Assembly: GCA_018812485.1 (NCBI GenBank) | Contig: JAHJDO010000135.1 | Coordinates: 1 to 40,676 of the forward strand | Reading direction: 5' to 3' | Source: a bacterium | GTDB taxonomy: Bacteria > JAHJDO01 | Length of the DNA stretch: 40,676 nt | The notes under the pieces: generated by a model | Told to the model about the DNA's origin: nothing | The model's database searches: none | Seen by the model: only the letters and a program-made list of their open reading frames with translations | In this document: piece after piece, positions 5,263 to 19,027 of the stretch | How the letters are laid out: the number at the start of each line of letters is the position of its first letter | How positions within the stretch are numbered: the first letter of the stretch is position 1 | Program-made: the position numbers and the translations under genes

Positions 5263-5339
5263 TGGTCGGGGCGACTGGATTCGAACCAGCGACCTCTTGA
5301 ACCCCATTCAAGCGCGCTACCAAGCTGCGCCACGCCCCG
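5263..5339 (-). tRNA. tRNA-Pro (anticodon GGG), CCA encoded
   Basis: Read on the minus strand, the cloverleaf is clear. The 7-bp acceptor stem is CGGGGCG paired with CGCCCCG. The D-arm is GCGC...GCGC with loop AGCTTGGTA. The anticodon stem CTTGA/TCAAG holds loop ATGGGGT (anticodon GGG, reading CCC), and the T-arm CTGG/CCAG holds the TTCGAAT loop. The discriminator base is A and the CCA end is encoded (5263-5265). It lies between merR (upstream) and secA (downstream) on the same strand, so it may be processed from a longer transcript. Confidence 0.96.
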
Positions 5340-10964: not shown

Positions 10965-10990
10965 GCCAAAACGGGACATTCTCATTTGCC

Positions 10991-11046: not shown

Positions 11047-11850
11047 TTGTATAAAGAATACTGGAGACTTCAGAAGAAACCTTTTGAGAATACTCCTGAC
11101 CCCCTGTTTTTATACCACTCCGAGGAATATGAAGAAGCCTTCACAAGACTCATGTATGCAGTAACCAATAAGAAGGGTGGAGCCCTTCTTACGGGCGAAT
11201 ACGGCGCAGGCAAAACCTTATTAAGCAGAACCATAATAAACAACCTTACAGAAGACAAATATGAAATTGCGCTGATTACTAACCCTAACTTTCCGCCAGA
11301 ACAACTTGTTCCCGAAATTCTCTATCAGCTGGGTGCCGAGAATATTAATAAGAACATAAAGATTGACAATGTTCATGCTTTCAATGACCTCTTATATAAA
11401 AATTACGAGTTGAATAAGGGTACAATTATAATTATCGATGAGGCTCAACTGATAGAAGACACAAGAATGTTTGAAGAGATCAGGTTGCTGCTGAACTTTC
11501 AGTTAAATGATCAATTTCTTTTAACCCTTATTTTGATGGGACAGCCTGAATTAAAAGCAAAAGTATCAAAAATTCCTCAATTTAAGCAAAGAATATCAAT
11601 CAGCTATCATCTAACAGGGCTATCTGAAAAAGAAATATCTAATTATATAAAGCATAGATTAACTATTGCTGGAACAAGTTCTGATATTTTTTTGAAAGAA
11701 TGTTTTCCGTCAATTTATTCATATTCAAAAGGAATTCCAAGAGTGATTAACAATATCTGTGATCTGGCATTATTTATAGGGTTTAATAAAAAAATTGACG
11801 CCATTGACAAAACAACCATTATGAAAATAATCGATGATTTGAGTAAGTGA
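11047..11850 (+). CDS. ExeA/GspA-like AAA ATPase
   Basis: 267-residue cytoplasmic AAA ATPase of the ExeA family, often linked to secretion or polysaccharide clusters. Walker A is GEYGAGKT (residues 50-57), Walker B ends in DEAQ (131-134), and the sensor region GIPRVINNICD lies near the C-terminus. The TTG start is chosen because the family begins with M-Y-x2-Y/F (here MYKEYWRLQKKPFENTPDP) and AAAGG is suitably placed. Unlike full ExeA it has no peptidoglycan-binding or membrane segment. First gene of the operon that runs on through the HD-GYP and peptide-modification genes. Confidence 0.88.
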   Translation: MYKEYWRLQKKPFENTPDPLFLYHSEEYEEAFTRLMYAVTNKKGGALLTGEYGAGKTLLSRTIINNLTEDKYEIALITNPNFPPEQLVPEILYQLGAENINKNIKIDNVHAFNDLLYKNYELNKGTIIIIDEAQLIEDTRMFEEIRLLLNFQLNDQFLLTLILMGQPELKAKVSKIPQFKQRISISYHLTGLSEKEISNYIKHRLTIAGTSSDIFLKECFPSIYSYSKGIPRVINNICDLALFIGFNKKIDAIDKTTIMKIIDDLSK

Positions 11851-11856
11851 GTTGAC

Positions 11857-12837
11857 ATGGTAAGAATATCCGATTTAGTAAGAAAAGATGATTCTCCAGA
11901 ATCTGACAAAAATTCTTTGAAGTTTTCTAATAAGCAACCTGATTCTAAAAAACAGGATGAACATTTAAAACTTTATTATAACCTGTTAGAATTTATGAAA
12001 AGTCTTTGGAATGACCTTAAGCAAAACAAGGTTATTAATGAGAAAGAGGTCAGAGATATTATTACAAAAACAGTAAAAGAAGTCAGGCACAATCATGAGG
12101 TATTCACCAACCTTGCCGAAACATACATGGATAGTAACTATCCCTCTATACATTCTGTTAATGTAGCTTTTATATGTATAAATATGGGACTCGGGTTAAA
12201 TTATACCAATGAGCAACTTATTGAATTAGGAATAATCGGACTGCTTCATGACATAGGAATGGTGAAAATAGATAATGAAATTTTTAATTCCTGTAAGGAG
12301 TTAACCATTGAACAGCTTGACGAGATAAGGAAACATCCATGGTACGGCGTAAAAATCCTTAAGCAGTCAAAAGGTTTTTCTCCAACAGTCAGGAAAACCA
12401 TATATTCGTCACATGAAAGAATTGACGGTACAGGATATCCCAATAAAATAAAAAATGGCGACATAACTGAACTCGAGCAGATTGTCGGCTTGGCCGACAC
12501 CTTTGAAGCAATGACCCATCCCAGACCATACAAAGAGCATCTATCTCCGTACGAAGCCATTAAAAACATTGTTGAAATTTCTGGAGGAAGATTCAACAGA
12601 AAAATCTTGAAAGCGCTTCTTGAACAGATTACGTTCTATCCTATAGGCTATAACGTATTACTTAATACAGAGGATAAAGCTAAGGTAATTAGGATTAGTA
12701 GCAACTCTCCATCAAGACCTGTGGTAAGCGTGTTTGAAGATAAAAATGGCAAAGCAGTCTCTCCTTCTAAAGAAATTGACCTTTCAAAGCAGCATTTTTT
12801 CTACATAAAAGAGACCCTTCTAGATGCGTCTTCTTAA
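11857..12837 (+). CDS. HD-GYP domain protein (putative c-di-GMP phosphodiesterase)
   Basis: 326-residue protein. The HD-GYP domain (about residues 95-260) shows H99, the HD pair H131-D132 in LLHDIGMVKI, HPWYGVKIL, the signature HERIDGTGYPN (186-196) and ADTFEAMTHPRPYK. These residues match active metal-dependent cyclic di-GMP hydrolases. The N-terminal about 80 residues are charged and have no recognisable receiver or sensor domain. It follows the ATPase gene after 6 bases and overlaps the next gene by 14, indicating coupling to the peptide-modification genes. Confidence 0.9.
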   Translation: MVRISDLVRKDDSPESDKNSLKFSNKQPDSKKQDEHLKLYYNLLEFMKSLWNDLKQNKVINEKEVRDIITKTVKEVRHNHEVFTNLAETYMDSNYPSIHSVNVAFICINMGLGLNYTNEQLIELGIIGLLHDIGMVKIDNEIFNSCKELTIEQLDEIRKHPWYGVKILKQSKGFSPTVRKTIYSSHERIDGTGYPNKIKNGDITELEQIVGLADTFEAMTHPRPYKEHLSPYEAIKNIVEISGGRFNRKILKALLEQITFYPIGYNVLLNTEDKAKVIRISSNSPSRPVVSVFEDKNGKAVSPSKEIDLSKQHFFYIKETLLDASS

Positions 12838-13294
12838 GAAAATTAGAGATAATTTTCTGTCATTTCGAGATGTATTTCTCTTTCTGAAGATATCTCTTTT
12901 CGCGATGATCTTGCCTTTTTTAATTAAATTCCTGAAAGTACAAAAATTAATGTATTTTTTAAACGTTAAAGGTGAAAACAACAGAAATTATTCAGGAGAT
13001 AAAATTGTTAAATATACGGATTATATATTAACTCGCAGCTTCCTATTTTATAAAAAAACCTGTCTTAACAGGAGTATTATTTTATACAGGTTTTTAAATA
13101 AAGCAGGTATAAAAGTAAAGTTGAATATTGGGATTAAGCGCGTTTCGTCTTGCTTTAAAAAAACAGATTTAATGGGACATGCCTGGCTTACATGTAACGG
13201 TAATTATTATGCGGAATCAATTCCACAGGAGACTGAAAATTATATTAAAACTTATGAATATGCCCCAAAACACCATCAATATCACTGCTCATAA
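12824..13294 (+). CDS. Lasso-type B2 leader peptidase (transglutaminase-like)
   Basis: 156-residue protein of the lasso-peptide B2/transglutaminase-like cysteine protease family, which removes the leader from RiPP precursors. The conserved Cys region is KKTCLNRSIILYRFLNKAGI (C80), followed by LNIGIKR and the His region GHAWLTCNGNYY (H119). The third catalytic residue, usually Asp, is not obvious; E131 is a candidate. The N-terminus has a hydrophobic stretch (about 17-45), so membrane association is possible. It overlaps HD-GYP by 14 bases and the nucleotidyltransferase gene at its 3' end. Its partner B1-like domain is encoded at 14118. Confidence 0.85.
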   Translation: MRLLKKIRDNFLSFRDVFLFLKISLFAMILPFLIKFLKVQKLMYFLNVKGENNRNYSGDKIVKYTDYILTRSFLFYKKTCLNRSIILYRFLNKAGIKVKLNIGIKRVSSCFKKTDLMGHAWLTCNGNYYAESIPQETENYIKTYEYAPKHHQYHCS

Positions 13295-14108
13295 TCTCAG
13301 AGCATTAGAAGACATAAAAAAAATAATAAAGCTTCTGAATTTATATGATATAGATGTGATACTATTAAAAGGCATTGCTCTGATTTTACAGTATCCCAAT
13401 TATATATCAGAACGTGTGTTAACAGATATTGATGTGCTTGTAGATAAAAAAAAAATTCGTGATACTGGAAAAATACTGAAAGAGAATGGATACATATATG
13501 AAACATCGAACAAGGCAACCCATATTACTTATTATAAAAGAAGTAATTTACCCGTGGAAATTCATTGGACCCTGATCAACTATTTAAATCCGCTGCAAAA
13601 ATATGCATTTGGCATAAGACTGGATGATATATGGGAAAAGACGCAACGGATGTCTGTTGACAGTTTAAAGTTTAATTTAATGTGTCCTGAGCATATGATA
13701 ATCTATCTGTCCATGCATATGATAAAAGAATTTCATGTTTCTAGAAAATGGATTAACGACATTAAACTATTAATTAAAAAAGAAAAGACTATAGATTGGC
13801 TTCTCCTCGTAAAAACCGCTCAAGCGTGGGGATGTATTCCCTGCGTGTATCACGCTTTAAAAGTTATCTCAATGGATAGCGGGTATTTGATACCGAAACC
13901 TATAATGAAGAAAGCTGCTTCTTACAAATTTCCATTTTGGCATAACTGGTTATTAGACAGAATATCGAGAGGACTATCCATAAGACACTTGCGTATATTG
14001 CTTTATTTTTCCGTTATGCCTGAGATAAAAGATAGATTGAAATCATTTCTATATCTTCCGATATACATCTTGAAAACAAGATGTTGCAATGATAAAGTTA
14101 TATTATAA
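13254..14108 (+). CDS. NTP_transf_5-type nucleotidyltransferase
   Basis: Member of the uncharacterised nucleotidyltransferase family (NTP_transf_5). The hallmark is LLKGIALILQYPN followed by the acidic motif LTDIDVLVDKKKI, then GYIYET, VEIHWTLI and the C-terminal helix region PEHMIIYLSMHMIKEF. The open frame extends further upstream into the B2 gene, but a start at 13254 or 13260 gives a sensible domain and limits the overlap to about 40 bases. Such proteins recur in lasso-peptide and related RiPP clusters, where a nucleotidyl-transfer tailoring role is suspected but substrates are mostly unknown. Confidence 0.82.
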   Translation: MNMPQNTINITAHNLRALEDIKKIIKLLNLYDIDVILLKGIALILQYPNYISERVLTDIDVLVDKKKIRDTGKILKENGYIYETSNKATHITYYKRSNLPVEIHWTLINYLNPLQKYAFGIRLDDIWEKTQRMSVDSLKFNLMCPEHMIIYLSMHMIKEFHVSRKWINDIKLLIKKEKTIDWLLLVKTAQAWGCIPCVYHALKVISMDSGYLIPKPIMKKAASYKFPFWHNWLLDRISRGLSIRHLRILLYFSVMPEIKDRLKSFLYLPIYILKTRCCNDKVIL

Positions 14109-14117
14109 AGGTGATAA

Positions 14118-14393
14118 GTGAAGAAATATTGTATAAATGAAAGCAAAGTCGCATGGAGAGATTTAGATGGAGAGACTGTTATTCTGGATCTAAAAACCGA
14201 TACTTATTTTTCACTTGATAAAATTGGAACCAAAATCTGGAATAAGATGATAAAAAAATCCGAAATTAAAGCCCTTGTGGCTTTAATAACAAGTTCATAT
14301 GAGGTAACTGCGAAAGAGGCTGAAAGAGATGTTGAAGAATTGATTTCCAGTTTAAAAAAGCAAGGATTAATTCTGGAATCGGCAGAGAAATGA
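14118..14393 (+). CDS. PqqD-like RRE protein (lasso B1 type)
   Basis: 91-residue PqqD-family protein, the RiPP recognition element that binds precursor leaders and delivers them to modifying enzymes. Typical features are VAWRDLDGETVILDLKTDTY, FSLDKIGTKIWNKM and the helical tail ERDVEELISSLKKQGLI. In lasso systems such a stand-alone domain (B1) binds the Y-x2-P-x-L-x3-G leader motif, which is present in the precursor at 15420. The start is GTG, with AAAGGTG just upstream. Its stop overlaps the radical SAM start as ATGA. Confidence 0.92.
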   Translation: MKKYCINESKVAWRDLDGETVILDLKTDTYFSLDKIGTKIWNKMIKKSEIKALVALITSSYEVTAKEAERDVEELISSLKKQGLILESAEK

Positions 14394-15469
14394 AAATGAA
14401 AAATATTATAGAAATAGATAAGGGGTTATTGACGAAGCGTTTGAGGATGAGATTAATTCCTTTCTGCTGTGTGTTTGAAATTACATCAAAGTGCAATTTA
14501 AATTGTAAACACTGCTACATATGTCAGGATAAGGCAAAAGAACTCACATTTGATGAAATTAAAAATATACTGGAACAAATTAAATCCTGCGGATGTCTTG
14601 AGCTTACAATAACTGGTGGAGAACCGCTGCTTAGAGAAGACATTTTTGATGTAATAAAATATGCAAGAGATAATGACTTTGCAGTATCTCTTTTTACAAA
14701 CGCCGTATTAATGGATAAAAAAACAGCGAAAAAGCTCAAGGAGCTTTCAGTCTATGACATTCAAATTAGTTTATATGGCGCAAGGGCTTCCATACATGAG
14801 AAAATTACAGGAAAACCAGGTTCTTTTGAAAGAACAATAAATGGGATTACTTTATTAAGAAGAAACGGAATCAAGCCCATAATTAAAACAACTGTTATGA
14901 AGGATAATTTTAAAGAGATAATCCATATTAAAAAATTATGTGAGGACATGAAATTAGAATATATTTTTGACACTATGATTTTCCCAAAGGATGATGGAAG
15001 TACTGCGCCTTTAAAGCTAAGATTAAACAACAGGAATCTATATGATTTTTTTACCGCAATGAATAAAAATGACAGAACCTCATTTTCATCTGAACAAATC
15101 CACTACAGGAAATTTGACACATGCGCAGCGGCAAGATCTATATTCGCTATCTCGCCCGATGGCAAAATTTATCCATGTATTGCATTTAAAATAGAGGCAG
15201 GGAATATCAATAAAGAACGATTCAAAGATATTTGGCAAAACTCAAGTGTTTTTAAGGATATCAGAGCAATGTCCATAAAGGATATTCCTGAATGCTCAAG
15301 CTGCGATCTGAATAATGAATGTCTCAGATGTCCGGGACTCTCACATATTGAACACGGAAATTTTAAAACTGTGCCCAAAGAATTGTGTAGAATAACAAAA
15401 ATCAAGGAGGAAGCAAAAAATGAAGAAAACCTACGAAAAACCCAGACTCACAAAGTACGGGCAGCTTAA
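14390..15469 (+). CDS. Radical SAM/SPASM peptide-modifying enzyme
   Basis: 359-residue radical SAM protein. C35-x3-C39-x2-C42 (CNLNCKHC) binds the SAM-cleaving 4Fe-4S cluster, and the GGEP motif is at 76-79. The C-terminal SPASM region has C245, G258-x4-C263, then C302-x2-C305-x5-C311-x2-C314 and C333, fitting two auxiliary Fe-S clusters. SPASM enzymes commonly modify ribosomal peptides (thioether, carbon-carbon or epimerisation chemistry); the reaction here is not determined by sequence. Overlap with the PqqD gene and with the precursor gene (50 bases) places it at the heart of the peptide pathway. PqqE and anaerobic sulfatase maturase are less likely because of this context. Confidence 0.93.
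   Translation: MKMKNIIEIDKGLLTKRLRMRLIPFCCVFEITSKCNLNCKHCYICQDKAKELTFDEIKNILEQIKSCGCLELTITGGEPLLREDIFDVIKYARDNDFAVSLFTNAVLMDKKTAKKLKELSVYDIQISLYGARASIHEKITGKPGSFERTINGITLLRRNGIKPIIKTTVMKDNFKEIIHIKKLCEDMKLEYIFDTMIFPKDDGSTAPLKLRLNNRNLYDFFTAMNKNDRTSFSSEQIHYRKFDTCAAARSIFAISPDGKIYPCIAFKIEAGNINKERFKDIWQNSSVFKDIRAMSIKDIPECSSCDLNNECLRCPGLSHIEHGNFKTVPKELCRITKIKEEAKNEENLRKTQTHKVRAA
15404..15410 (+). promoter_or_regulatory. Strong Shine-Dalgarno of the precursor peptide gene
   Basis: AAGGAGG at 15404-15410 lies 9 bases before the ATG at 15420, inside the 3' end of the radical SAM gene. It is the best ribosome-binding site in this operon, where neighbours use weak or no site. This fits a precursor made in excess over its modifying enzymes and is the main evidence that the small overlapping frame is a real gene. 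Confidence 0.75.
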
Positions 15470-15584
15470 AGACATAACAAAGATGGCTATAACTGCCTCA
15501 AAAACGAATAAGAATCAGTGTCCGTCAGTATGCCAAACTCCGCTGCTTGCTAACAGGAATAATCCAAAACAGGGTTGTTGTTAA
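15420..15584 (+). CDS. RiPP precursor peptide with lasso-type leader
   Basis: 54-residue peptide. The leader carries the lasso recognition pattern: Y5, P8, L10, G14 and T20 (YEKPRLTKYGQLKDIT). By lasso rules cleavage would follow residue 21, leaving a core of residues 22-54. The core has no Asp or Glu, contains C34-x3-C38 (CPSVC), Ser/Thr/Asn-rich segments, and ends with GCC (C53, C54). The gene overlaps the radical SAM gene by 50 bases and has a strong Shine-Dalgarno. Without a ring-forming acidic residue or a cyclase gene, a classical lasso is unlikely; Cys-centred modification is more plausible. The mature structure is unknown. Confidence 0.85.
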   Translation: MKKTYEKPRLTKYGQLKDITKMAITASKTNKNQCPSVCQTPLLANRNNPKQGCC

Positions 15585-15591
15585 TAGATCT

Positions 15592-16545
15592 GTGTTTGAT
15601 ATACACGGTGTCCGTTTTGAAATTTCCTCAAATAGGGAAAAGTATATAAAATGGACAAAAGATTACATCTATTTTGCCGAGAAAAGAAACAAAAATCTCC
15701 AATGGCATATCCATATTAACGAAATAAAAGGAAGTTTTCCCCTCTTCCCTCCTGAGACATCAAAAAAAGCCAGGTCAAAATCAATTCCCATCATTTACGA
15801 AAATGGCAATTTATTATGGTTTGACTTTTTTTATGCTGTTGCGCAAATTAATTTGACAAGCAAAAGTATCGCAGTCTGGATAAAGAAATTCAAAGGGCTT
15901 ACAGAATTCTATTTTACAAATATAATCCTGTTTAATATCCTTAATCTTATTTTAAGCTATAGTGGTATGGTTTTTATTCATTCAGCAAGTCTTTGTTATG
16001 GCGGGAAAGGCATTATTTTGGCAGGTGAAGCGGGAGCGGGCAAAAGCACTTTATCTGTGGGATTAGTGGAAAGAGGATGTAAATTCCTTTCTGATGATAA
16101 GTCTATCATTCATCTTAATAACAATAAAGCTGAAATGCTTTCCTTTCCTGAACCAGTTTCTTTGCAAGAGGATGCCTGCAGTTTTTTCACAACGACTAGA
16201 CCATTTGCAAAACAAAAAAATAAACTTGATAAATATAAAAAGATCTTCAGGATAAACTCATTGTACTGCGACTCTGCTATAAGCAGATGCAAGCCAAGTC
16301 TGATTATATTTCTGCATAAAGCCTGCGGCAAAGAAACTTTTGCTAAAAAGATAACCAAAAAAGAATCTTTAGACTGCCTTATTGGGTCTGTTTCAACATC
16401 TTTTATTACTGAATCCGCTGTTGTTTTTAAGATATTGGCTGAACTTGCTGATAGCGTTAGATCCTATAGATTAGCCCTTGGAGAAAATATAGATAAATCT
16501 GTTGAAGCAATTCTAGGTTTAGTAAGAAGCGAGAAGCCCCTTTAG
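15592..16545 (+). CDS. HPr-kinase-like RiPP tailoring protein
   Basis: Protein of about 317 residues with a C-terminal HPr-kinase-like P-loop domain: FIHSASL (H130), Walker A GEAGAGKST (145-153) and the LSDD motif (167-170). Relatives in some lasso clusters phosphorylate precursor peptides; others are uncharacterised. The open frame reaches back to a TTG at 15547 inside the precursor gene. I prefer the GTG at 15592, 7 bases after the precursor stop, which suggests re-initiation, but neither start has a clear Shine-Dalgarno. The absence of PTS genes argues against a true HprK. Its 3' end overlaps the convergent permease gene by 27 bases. Confidence 0.82.
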   Translation: MFDIHGVRFEISSNREKYIKWTKDYIYFAEKRNKNLQWHIHINEIKGSFPLFPPETSKKARSKSIPIIYENGNLLWFDFFYAVAQINLTSKSIAVWIKKFKGLTEFYFTNIILFNILNLILSYSGMVFIHSASLCYGGKGIILAGEAGAGKSTLSVGLVERGCKFLSDDKSIIHLNNNKAEMLSFPEPVSLQEDACSFFTTTRPFAKQKNKLDKYKKIFRINSLYCDSAISRCKPSLIIFLHKACGKETFAKKITKKESLDCLIGSVSTSFITESAVVFKILAELADSVRSYRLALGENIDKSVEAILGLVRSEKPL

Positions 16546-17331
16546 TTTAGCTTTCTTCAGACACCAGTTGAAAAAGATATGTCCTGTTCCGCATATCAAT
16601 ATAGAAAAAATCAGAAGAATGATTAGCTCTTCTTTCATATCAAGAATTGACTGTCCGTAAAACATGGATTTCCTTGCCGCATTAAGAGAATGTGTAATAG
16701 GAAGAAAATCCGAAACTTTATGTAACCATTTTGGAAGGACTGCTATAGGGAAATAGACGCCGCCAAGCAGTCTGAAAACGTTCGTTATAATCCATGAAAT
16801 TGGATTCCAATTTTTAAATATTAATATAAATCCTCCTCCCATGAGTCCAAACCCTGTTGAATAGACGGCTGTCGTTAACAGAACAATAAACAATGATGGG
16901 AAATTTATATTAAGTTTTATTCCAAAGAAAATAATGCCTATAATCACGTATAATAGAAACATGAAGAAAGAATATATCATTGTGTTTATTGCTATTGCAT
17001 AAGCAATGCTTGTAGGTTTTACCGGCGATACAAGAACAACTTCCAGGGTGCCTGTAAGCTGCTCGTTGCGAATATAGTCAGGAATTGTCTGAAGTCCAGC
17101 CCAGACAATACTTGATGAAGCAATGCCTATTAATACAAAAGAGAAATAATTATCCGCACAGCCTTTTACAAAACTGGTTCCGCTCTGGCCTATTAACTTT
17201 GATATAAAAAAGAAAAGCATAATTGTGAAAATTATATTAAGCTGACTGAATATGAAAGAGCACTTGTAGCTCTTATCAATAAGAAATTCTCTTACTATCA
17301 ATGCCTTTGTAATTTTTAGGAATCTAAACAT
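16519..17331 (-). CDS. ABC-2 type transporter permease
   Basis: 270-residue integral membrane protein with about six hydrophobic segments and the ABC-2 pattern (YIRNEQLTGTLEVVLVSPVK before the central helices, LGGVYFPIAVLPKWLHKVS and FLPITHSLNAARKS near the end). ABC-2 permeases move polysaccharides, drugs, peptides or lipids outward. It overlaps the ATPase gene by 8 bases, so the two form a transporter. The pair converges on the peptide-modification operon and is divergent from wza, so it could export either the modified peptide or a glycan; sequence does not decide. Confidence 0.9.
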   Translation of the reverse strand: MFRFLKITKALIVREFLIDKSYKCSFIFSQLNIIFTIMLFFFISKLIGQSGTSFVKGCADNYFSFVLIGIASSSIVWAGLQTIPDYIRNEQLTGTLEVVLVSPVKPTSIAYAIAINTMIYSFFMFLLYVIIGIIFFGIKLNINFPSLFIVLLTTAVYSTGFGLMGGGFILIFKNWNPISWIITNVFRLLGGVYFPIAVLPKWLHKVSDFLPITHSLNAARKSMFYGQSILDMKEELIILLIFSILICGTGHIFFNWCLKKAKLKGLLASY

Positions 17332-17977
17332 TATTTACAATTTTGCCTTTTTCCATATACATAACTCTGCCAACAATATTTTTAATCTCCCTTTCCTTTG
17401 CAGTTGCGATGAATGCTAATCTGTTATTCTTCCTGGAATAATCCTGCATTAATCTGTTCACCAATTCAATTCCATCTTCATCCATAGATATAAAAGGCTC
17501 GTCAAAGAGCAATATTTGAGGCCCATGCAATATTGAACGAATGATATTCAGCTTCTGCCGCATTCCTGACGAATATAACCCTGCCAGAGTATCTCTGCTG
17601 TTTTCTAATCCAAATTTGGACATTAAATAGTTTGCCCTTTCTGTAATATTTTTTTCGCCCATTCCATAGAACCTTCCAAAAAAAGTAAGGTTCTGCAACC
17701 CCGTTAATCTCCAGTGCAAACATCTGGAATCAGCAGGCAGCCACCCAATTCTGAGGTCAGGATAAATATCTTCATTTATTTTTACGGCACCGCTATCCGG
17801 GATCAACAACCCAGCAATGATCTTTAATAACGTAGTCTTTCCTGCTCCATTAGTGCCAACCAATCCAACAATTTGCCCGCTTTCTATGGAAAGATTAATA
17901 TTACTTAGGGCTCTGACGCTTCTTCCATTCGAGCGAAATATCTTTGTTAAATCTATTATTTTTATGGCATGTTTCAT
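17324..17977 (-). CDS. ABC transporter ATPase with atypical Q- and H-loops
   Basis: About 217-residue ATP-binding subunit. Walker A is GTNGAGKTT, the signature is YSSGMRQKLNIIRSI and Walker B is ILLFDEP. The Q-loop glutamine seems absent (RIGWLPADSRCLHWRLTGL), and the switch His is not seen where expected (LAFIATAKEREIKNI). The open frame extends to 18076, but the ATG at 17977 (MKHAIKIIDLTKIF) is preferred because the longer form would run across the wza promoter and start. It is upstream of, and overlaps, the permease gene. Confidence 0.88.
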   Translation of the reverse strand: MKHAIKIIDLTKIFRSNGRSVRALSNINLSIESGQIVGLVGTNGAGKTTLLKIIAGLLIPDSGAVKINEDIYPDLRIGWLPADSRCLHWRLTGLQNLTFFGRFYGMGEKNITERANYLMSKFGLENSRDTLAGLYSSGMRQKLNIIRSILHGPQILLFDEPFISMDEDGIELVNRLMQDYSRKNNRLAFIATAKEREIKNIVGRVMYMEKGKIVNNV

Positions 17978-18008
17978 GTTGCGTTCGTATAATTTAAGGT
18001 TATTGGTT

Positions 18009-18037
18009 TTGATTTTATAGTAGAAATTTGATATTAT
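18009..18037 (+). promoter_or_regulatory. Sigma-70-type promoter of the exopolysaccharide operon
   Basis: TTGATT (18009-18014, four of six) and TATTAT (18032-18037, five of six) with a 17-base spacer. The start of transcription would fall near 18044, just before AGAAGG (18049-18054), which serves the ATG at 18065. All genes from here to 40476 are on the plus strand with gaps under 40 bases, so this may drive the whole cluster. Confidence 0.55.
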
Positions 18038-18064
18038 CAAGTTATTAGAGAAGGTGTGGGCAAT

Positions 18065-19027
18065 ATGCAGAAGCACAAAGTATTAATCATTGTGTTATTT
18101 TTTTCCCTGTTATGTTGTATTAATTCAAGCATCTCTTCCAAGGAGAATACTTCACTGGACTATGTTGTTGGTCCCGGGGATGAACTGTCTATAACTGTTT
18201 GGGGGCACGATGATCTGAGCAGGGATGTAACAGTCAGCAGAAAAGGAGACATAACAATAGCTCCTCTGGCAGTTATACATGTTGCGGGAATGACAATTGG
18301 ACAGGTTGAGAGTGAGGTAAAGAAGATATTTTTAAAATATGTTCTGCATCCTATCGTCACACTTTCGATAAAAGAATATAAGAGCCAGAAGATTATTGTG
18401 CTTGGCGAGGTAGGTAGCACAGCTGCAGGAGCAGGAATAAGCGGACCTGGTGTATATACATTGAAGGGTAAAACAGAGTTTCTGGAGTTTTTTATGTCAG
18501 TAGGAGGTCATACCAAAAATGCAGATATAAAGCATATAAAACTGATAAAGCAGAATGGTGAGGTAACCACAATTGATTTGAATAATTATGTATTAAAGCC
18601 GAAACTAGAACAAAGCATTTATGTGGAAAGTGGAGATAGATTATTTATTCCTCCAATTATTATAGATAAAGTTTTTGTTATGGGAGAAGTTAAAAGTCCA
18701 AGAGTTGTTCCTTATTATGCAGAAATGAGACTTATGGAGGCTATCACAGAAGCTGGAAGCTTTACAGAAAGCGCGACTATAAGAAGCACAAAAGTTGTAA
18801 GAGGCAGTTTTGAGAAACCAGAGGTCATCTCTGTAGCGATCAGAAAAATATTTAAAAAAGGATCTATTAAGTATAATATCCTTCTTGAACCGGGAGATAT
18901 AATATACGTTCCCAGGTCAACGATTGGAAGCATAAATTATTTTATCAGACAAATTCTTCCAAGTTTGCAATTAGCCGCCTTTACCAATGCATTGGCTACA
19001 ACTGCCACCTTAAGAACAGTTAAATAG
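18065..19027 (+). CDS. wza: Polysaccharide export protein (Wza-like, SLBB domains)
   Basis: About 320-residue outer-membrane-type export protein. The N-terminus is a secretion signal (VLIIVLFFSLLCCINSS), possibly lipidated at a Cys, though the lipobox is imperfect. The export domain starts at YVVGPGDELSITVWGHDDLS and is followed by two SLBB-like domains (IIVLGEVG...GVYTLKGKTEF and VFVMGEVKSPRVVPYYAEMR). The C-terminal region is amphipathic. A GTG at 18056 is also in frame, but it would sit only 1 base after the Shine-Dalgarno, so ATG 18065 is better. First gene of the exopolysaccharide operon. Confidence 0.93.
   Translation: MQKHKVLIIVLFFSLLCCINSSISSKENTSLDYVVGPGDELSITVWGHDDLSRDVTVSRKGDITIAPLAVIHVAGMTIGQVESEVKKIFLKYVLHPIVTLSIKEYKSQKIIVLGEVGSTAAGAGISGPGVYTLKGKTEFLEFFMSVGGHTKNADIKHIKLIKQNGEVTTIDLNNYVLKPKLEQSIYVESGDRLFIPPIIIDKVFVMGEVKSPRVVPYYAEMRLMEAITEAGSFTESATIRSTKVVRGSFEKPEVISVAIRKIFKKGSIKYNILLEPGDIIYVPRSTIGSINYFIRQILPSLQLAAFTNALATTATLRTVK

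Follow-up and report, generated by a model that had tools for sequence, protein, structure and literature searches.

The 40,676-nucleotide bacterial contig JAHJDO010000135.1, hereafter the window, raises the question of what product is made by a gene set at 12824-16545 that combines lasso-type leader-processing genes with a radical S-adenosylmethionine (SAM) enzyme. Our answer, to which we give a probability of about three in four, is that this is a cluster for a ribosomally synthesized and post-translationally modified peptide (RiPP) in which a lasso-type RiPP recognition element (RRE) and B2 protease are combined with radical SAM modification of the core, and that it belongs to a widespread lineage of B2 and radical SAM pairs without lasso cyclases. 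The genes present, their synteny, the conservation of catalytic residues, the recurrence of the set and its phylogeny are directly established; the reactions, their order and the export of the product are inferred.

Six open reading frames (ORFs), all on the plus strand, make up the set. The first (12824-13294) encodes a B2-type (C96, transglutaminase-like) leader protease that matches PF13471 and NF033537 (45 bits against a cut-off of 33) and has the conserved residues Cys80, His119 and Trp121. It is followed by an NTP_transf_5 nucleotidyltransferase-like protein (about 13260-14108; PF14907, 127.8 bits), whose start was taken as the ATG at 13260 within a longer ORF (13179-14108) and which may have a tailoring role like that of PsmN. 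The PqqD-like RRE, or B1 (14118-14393; PF05402), lies directly upstream of the radical SAM gene and carries Tyr30 at the column proposed to contact the leader Thr(-2). Its significant matches among solved structures were only lasso B1 proteins, with TbiB1 first, a lasso PqqD chaperone and TfuB1. The radical SAM/SPASM enzyme (14390-15469; PF04055 and PF13186), predicted to modify the peptide, has a CxxxCxxC motif at 35/39/42 and seven cysteines in the SPASM domain at 245, 263, 302, 305, 311, 314 and 333. Its AlphaFold model (mean predicted local distance difference test score 88) is closest in fold to the peptide maturases SkfB, SuiB, 5why/5wgg and PqqE. Overlapping its 3' end is the ORF of the 54-aa precursor (15420-15584), MKKTYEKPRLTKYGQLKDITKMAITASKTNKNQCPSVCQTPLLANRNNPKQGCC, with a strong Shine-Dalgarno sequence, AAGGAGGAAG, just upstream of the start. 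The last gene (15547-16545, from a TTG at 15547 or a GTG at 15592) encodes an HprK-related kinase; it scores 60.9 bits with TIGR04352 (HprK_rel_A), under the cut-off of 200, and has the His-Lys-Asp-Asp set (H145, K166, D183 and D184) that is essential in lasso-tailoring kinases (PMC9266682). The original prediction, made from the letters of the window, had named these six genes in this order, with a kinase-like last member, a lasso-pattern leader on the precursor and no cyclase in the window; ORFs, domain matches and motifs bear out all of this, including the intact kinase motif, and what that inventory missed was an ABC exporter and the exopolysaccharide setting.

The leader (residues 1-21) was compared with the published lasso rule of Tyr(-17), Pro(-14), Leu(-12) and Thr(-2) (PMC10368454). 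Y5, P8, L10 and T20 have the identical spacing, and with Tyr5 set at -17 the predicted cleavage therefore falls between K21 and M22. The precursor matched the lasso_cyano model NF033528 with an E value of 6e-7, but its 29.3 bits stay below the cut-off of 33, and NF033521 gave 17.8 bits, likewise below cut-off. By itself the strict motif Y-x2-P-x-L-x9-T is not rare, chance giving 0.3 occurrences per shuffled window; within the 3.7-kb cluster region, however, only 1.6% of shuffles produced it, and the motif occupies the same place in related loci. The window leader is also alike to that of the precursor in locus L184 (p 2e-4), whose radical SAM enzyme is the nearest to ours in the tree (Shimodaira-Hasegawa-like approximate likelihood ratio test support 90). 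When ten related precursors were scanned with NCBIfam, none passed a cut-off except for lasso_leader_L3, in the true lasso precursor of L117.

The core, M22-C54, contains Cys34, Cys38, Cys53 and Cys54 and not a single Asp or Glu. The acidic residue that a macrolactam needs at core position 7-9 is thus absent, so a lasso ring is impossible whatever cyclase exists. This speaks against a lasso cluster whose cyclase acts in trans, with the radical SAM enzyme as an added tailoring step, a reading to which the lasso-like leader, RRE and B2 would lend themselves. Within the 40.7-kb window we found no asparagine-synthetase-like lasso cyclase. Elsewhere in the genome PF00733 matches occur on contigs C12, C36 and C91, none with a B2, the only B2 of the genome being that of the window. 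The candidate on C36 (locus L003) is without the N-terminal Cys that glutamine-dependent enzymes usually have, a point in favour of a cyclase, but it is located among glycosyltransferase genes with no B2 or RRE alongside. Since, moreover, B2 proteins linked to radical SAM enzymes form a lineage apart from cyclase-linked ones (see below), we consider a cyclase in trans scarcely plausible.

We surveyed 385 diverse genomes, found a B2 match in 44 and annotated 38 loci in six frames, taking a gene as a neighbour when it lay within 6.5 kb of B2. Twelve loci had a cyclase only, 11 a radical SAM enzyme only, one had both, one had a weak radical SAM match and 13 had neither, several of these last being cut by contig ends; the proportions are rough, because the sample consists of relatives and not of random bacteria and single loci can be misread. 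The sole locus with both (L173) is a lasso cluster beside a separate cassette of RRE, radical SAM and HprK. In an unrooted tree of 49 B2 domains, a branch with 98/97 support sets apart a group that holds all 19 radical-SAM-linked B2s and 10 unassigned ones but not one linked to a cyclase, which makes the pairing probably an old one. The residue preceding the catalytic His differs in parallel: Ala in 14/14 cyclase-linked rows, Gly in 17/19 radical-SAM-linked ones. The radical SAM enzymes themselves belong to several lineages (the window with L184, an Omnitrophota group, an L119-type group and others), and one B2 lineage has therefore been paired with several of them. The pairing in the window thus looks, from the tree, like an established lineage and not a recent local replacement of a cyclase by a radical SAM enzyme, a scenario that we considered and dropped because the B2 tree gives it no support. 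In this respect the original prediction was partly right: it had proposed that leader recognition and removal were kept and the core chemistry exchanged, and lasso-type recognition and removal genes do accompany a radical SAM enzyme, no cyclase and a non-lasso core, but an exchange in this very locus is not what the tree indicates. The check that it suggested, a search for the gene set with such precursors in other genomes, showed the arrangement to recur, including in Omnitrophota. More broadly, and with somewhat less assurance than for the window itself, we lean towards the view that B2 is not a lasso hallmark and that a major B2 lineage acts in a distinct RiPP class of wide distribution, where a lasso-type T(-2) leader and its RRE would be combined with various radical SAM enzymes, unrelated Cys-rich or Cys-free cores and kinase and nucleotidyltransferase tailoring.

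Several other loci are worth recording. Three of family f99 (L160, L164 and L176) have B2, PqqD, HprK-like and NTP_transf_5 genes and the ABC pair but lack both a cyclase and a radical SAM enzyme; their B2 falls in the radical-SAM-type lineage. L118 and L120 have two tandem PqqD genes with radical SAM, HprK-like and B2 genes, and a precursor with an F-x2-P-x-L-x9-[IV] leader and a CSSC-rich core. One genus has two versions of the cluster, L157 (genome G705) with a lasso cyclase and L162 (G576) with a radical SAM enzyme, the gene set being otherwise nearly identical.

Recognition of Y-x2-P has been found in several RiPP classes, sactipeptides included (2025 study, PMC12710340). It is not lasso-specific, and Thr(-2) together with the RRE Tyr, which has been suggested to help form the Thr(-2) pocket (PMC10368454), is the more telling feature. 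The Tyr is present in 15/15 lasso RREs, in the window and in L119, L161-L163, L167-L169 and L184; the column is Val in L110-L115 and Phe in L118 and L120, and the Tyr is absent from all 13 RREs of loci without B2. On the leader side, Y/F-x2-P-x-[LV]-x9-T occurs in the radical-SAM-linked loci L161, L162 (four ORFs), L167 and L170. The L184 leader reads Y-x4-L-x9-T, with no Pro, and the L168 precursor has Ile at -2, a known lasso exception. Among loci where both features could be read, Thr(-2) accompanied the Tyr in 14/15 cases and occurred in 1/16 of the others (Fisher p 9e-7); with lasso loci excluded the figures were 5/6 and 1/16 (p 0.0013), both p values being optimistic, since some of the loci are related to one another and they were listed by hand.

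A search of 334 Omnitrophota genomes yielded six loci (L110-L115) in which B2 adjoins PqqD, HprK-like and radical SAM genes. NTP_transf_5 and the ABC pair are present in five of the six, the stretch examined for L110 showing the permease only; the contig of L114 ends after the radical SAM gene. In L110, L111, L112, L113 and L115 the cyclase-less set comes with its own small Cys-rich peptide, and a small Y-x2-P peptide with at least three Cys lies 3' of the radical SAM gene in five of the six loci. By the lasso count, 17 residues after the Tyr, the first core residue is Cys in L110, L112, L113 and L115. The ABC transporter of the window belongs to the same picture. Convergent to the cluster on the minus strand are an ABC-2 type permease (16519-17331), the likely product exporter, and its partner ATPase (17324-18076); the pair goes with this gene set in Omnitrophota too, the convergent arrangement being present in L110-L113 and L115 and in the B2-less loci L011, L014 and L016, and we count it as a cluster member. 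As a side observation, the Omnitrophota genome G394 has at least eight tandem small precursors (L116, 1363-2693) with F-x2-P-x-L-x2-RGSLKEVTF leaders, adjoining B2, NTP_transf_5 and HprK-like genes; the 9.8-kb contig has no cyclase gene and no radical SAM gene.

The surroundings of these loci suggest another reading, namely that the small ORF is not the substrate and that the genes work in exopolysaccharide or exosortase functions, with some other target for the HprK-like and NTP_transf_5 proteins. The cluster indeed heads an exopolysaccharide locus and follows an XrtA-type ATPase, and the Omnitrophota sets sit in similar loci. Directly upstream of B2 in the window, at 11047-12837 on the plus strand, are genes for an XrtA-type ATPase (TIGR03015, 218 bits, under the cut-off of 324.5) and an HD-GYP protein, in synteny with L110, L113 and L114; both genes precede B2 in L113 and L114, and HD-GYP alone does so in L110. 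Against a purely exopolysaccharide role, a small Y-x2-P ORF with a strong ribosome site stands beside the radical SAM gene in nearly every complete related locus. We regard that role as quite improbable for the set, and the XrtA-type ATPase and HD-GYP genes are probably context, outside the RiPP pathway.

For the RiPP pathway that we favour, the following course can be proposed. The RRE would bind the Y-x2-P-x-L leader and hand the precursor to the SPASM radical SAM enzyme, which would modify the core, most likely by thioether links between core cysteines. B2, then activated by the same RRE, would cleave behind Lys21, the -2 pocket being occupied by Thr20. A Ser or Thr would probably be phosphorylated and further decorated by the HprK-like kinase and the NTP_transf_5 protein, roles known from PadeK/PsmK and from PsmN in lasso pathways (PMC9266682), and the product would be exported through the convergent ABC-2 transporter. 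Thioethers are our best guess for the chemistry of the window peptide because of its four core Cys and of the nearest structures of the radical SAM enzyme, among which 5why/5wgg are those of a sactipeptide thioether maturase.

Several points weigh against this interpretation. Its support is wholly computational, the RRE and precursor score under the NCBIfam lasso cut-offs, and the PqqD tree is poorly resolved, having too few columns. The cores of L161, L162, L167 and L170 are free of Cys, so thioether chemistry is not general to the family. The window core has no detectable similarity to the Omnitrophota cores: they look alike in having three or four Cys, but shuffling gave p values of 0.18-0.86, and we dropped the idea that they are homologous. 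For B2, the third catalytic acid is variable, and a search with the AlphaFold model of the window protein gave no significant match in the PDB (best E 0.08). These last two points would suit a pathway in which RRE and radical SAM enzyme modify the peptide, B2 is dead or otherwise employed and another protease removes the leader. Cassettes with RRE, radical SAM enzyme, HprK-like protein and Cys-bearing precursor do exist without B2 (L011, L014, L016 and L019), and in such cassettes some other protease must take off the leader; an S26 peptidase-like domain occurs in several B2-less relatives. However, Cys, His and Trp are invariant in 49/49 aligned B2s and in 17/17 of the radical-SAM type, and the window keeps Thr(-2) and the RRE Tyr along with its B2, whereas none of the 13 B2-less RREs has that Tyr. 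Removal of the leader by a protease other than B2 therefore appears rather unlikely. The window precursor ends in Cys-Cys; the precursors of the B2-less loci L011, L016 and L019 have Ser as their last residue (DS or SGS), and Ser is what lasso kinases phosphorylate.

The NCBI model names B2 'lasso peptide biosynthesis', and genome mining commonly takes B2 plus RRE as lasso markers. Given that radical SAM enzymes and cyclases were about equally frequent as neighbours of B2 in our survey, many such lasso annotations may be wrong. Lasso clusters with discrete B1 and B2, kinase and nucleotidyltransferase (paeninodin, pseudomycoidin and Bsf type) share with the window the RRE, B2, leader, HprK-like and nucleotidyltransferase-like proteins and an ABC transporter, but the window has a SPASM radical SAM enzyme, no cyclase, a core without Asp or Glu and a B2 of a separate lineage. 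The sactipeptide and ranthipeptide systems (StsB/StsC, SkfB, 5why/5wgg) resemble it in the SPASM maturase, the discrete PqqD-like RRE and the Cys-bearing precursor; the window adds a B2-type protease, a lasso-type T(-2) leader, a kinase and a nucleotidyltransferase, and its radical SAM enzyme does not reach the curated NCBIfam sactipeptide maturase models (StsB, 120.5 against 625 bits; ACGX, 126.1 against 400). The combination of RRE, SPASM radical SAM and HprK-like proteins is also shared with the uncharacterised NCBIfam cassettes SynChlorMet ScmC/D/E/F, HprK-rel-A and GeoRSP, but the window falls below all their cut-offs (ScmC 18.8/125, ScmD 21.3/100, HprK_rel_A 60.9/200) and, to our knowledge, their definitions include no B2. 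The RRE-Finder account, in its passages on this point, counts about 300 matches of the discrete lasso RRE model beside radical SAM enzymes as false positives, and those passages do not mention B2, T(-2) or a split between B2 lineages (PMC7470986). The relevant part of a 2023 protease review handles C96 proteases under lasso peptides only (PMC10885120). We found no description of B2 paired with a radical SAM enzyme in the open-access literature, subscription literature being outside the search. In these loci radical SAM maturases come ready-matched to a lasso-type leader with its RRE and protease, and the predicted cleavage site is testable; a possible use is the joining of radical SAM chemistry to a well-studied leader system.

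The genus of the window is the sole one of its phylum among the genomes examined (five species). DNA synteny with each of two sister species breaks off at 10966-10967, immediately ahead of the XrtA-type ATPase, no ortholog of the HD-GYP protein was found in the sister species (best 33%), and none of the four sister species has a B2; the RiPP cluster and the exopolysaccharide genes are therefore accessory. We ruled out a contaminant contig, as its SecA is 89-94% identical to that of sister species and synteny runs up to 10966. The accessory block, 10966-40476, comprises the XrtA-type ATPase, HD-GYP, RiPP cluster, ABC pair and exopolysaccharide genes. G+C content is lowest in the RiPP part, at 33.1%, the core part having 38.5%. 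A tRNA gene lies at 5266-5339 on the minus strand of the window (Rfam RF00005, 61.6 bits).

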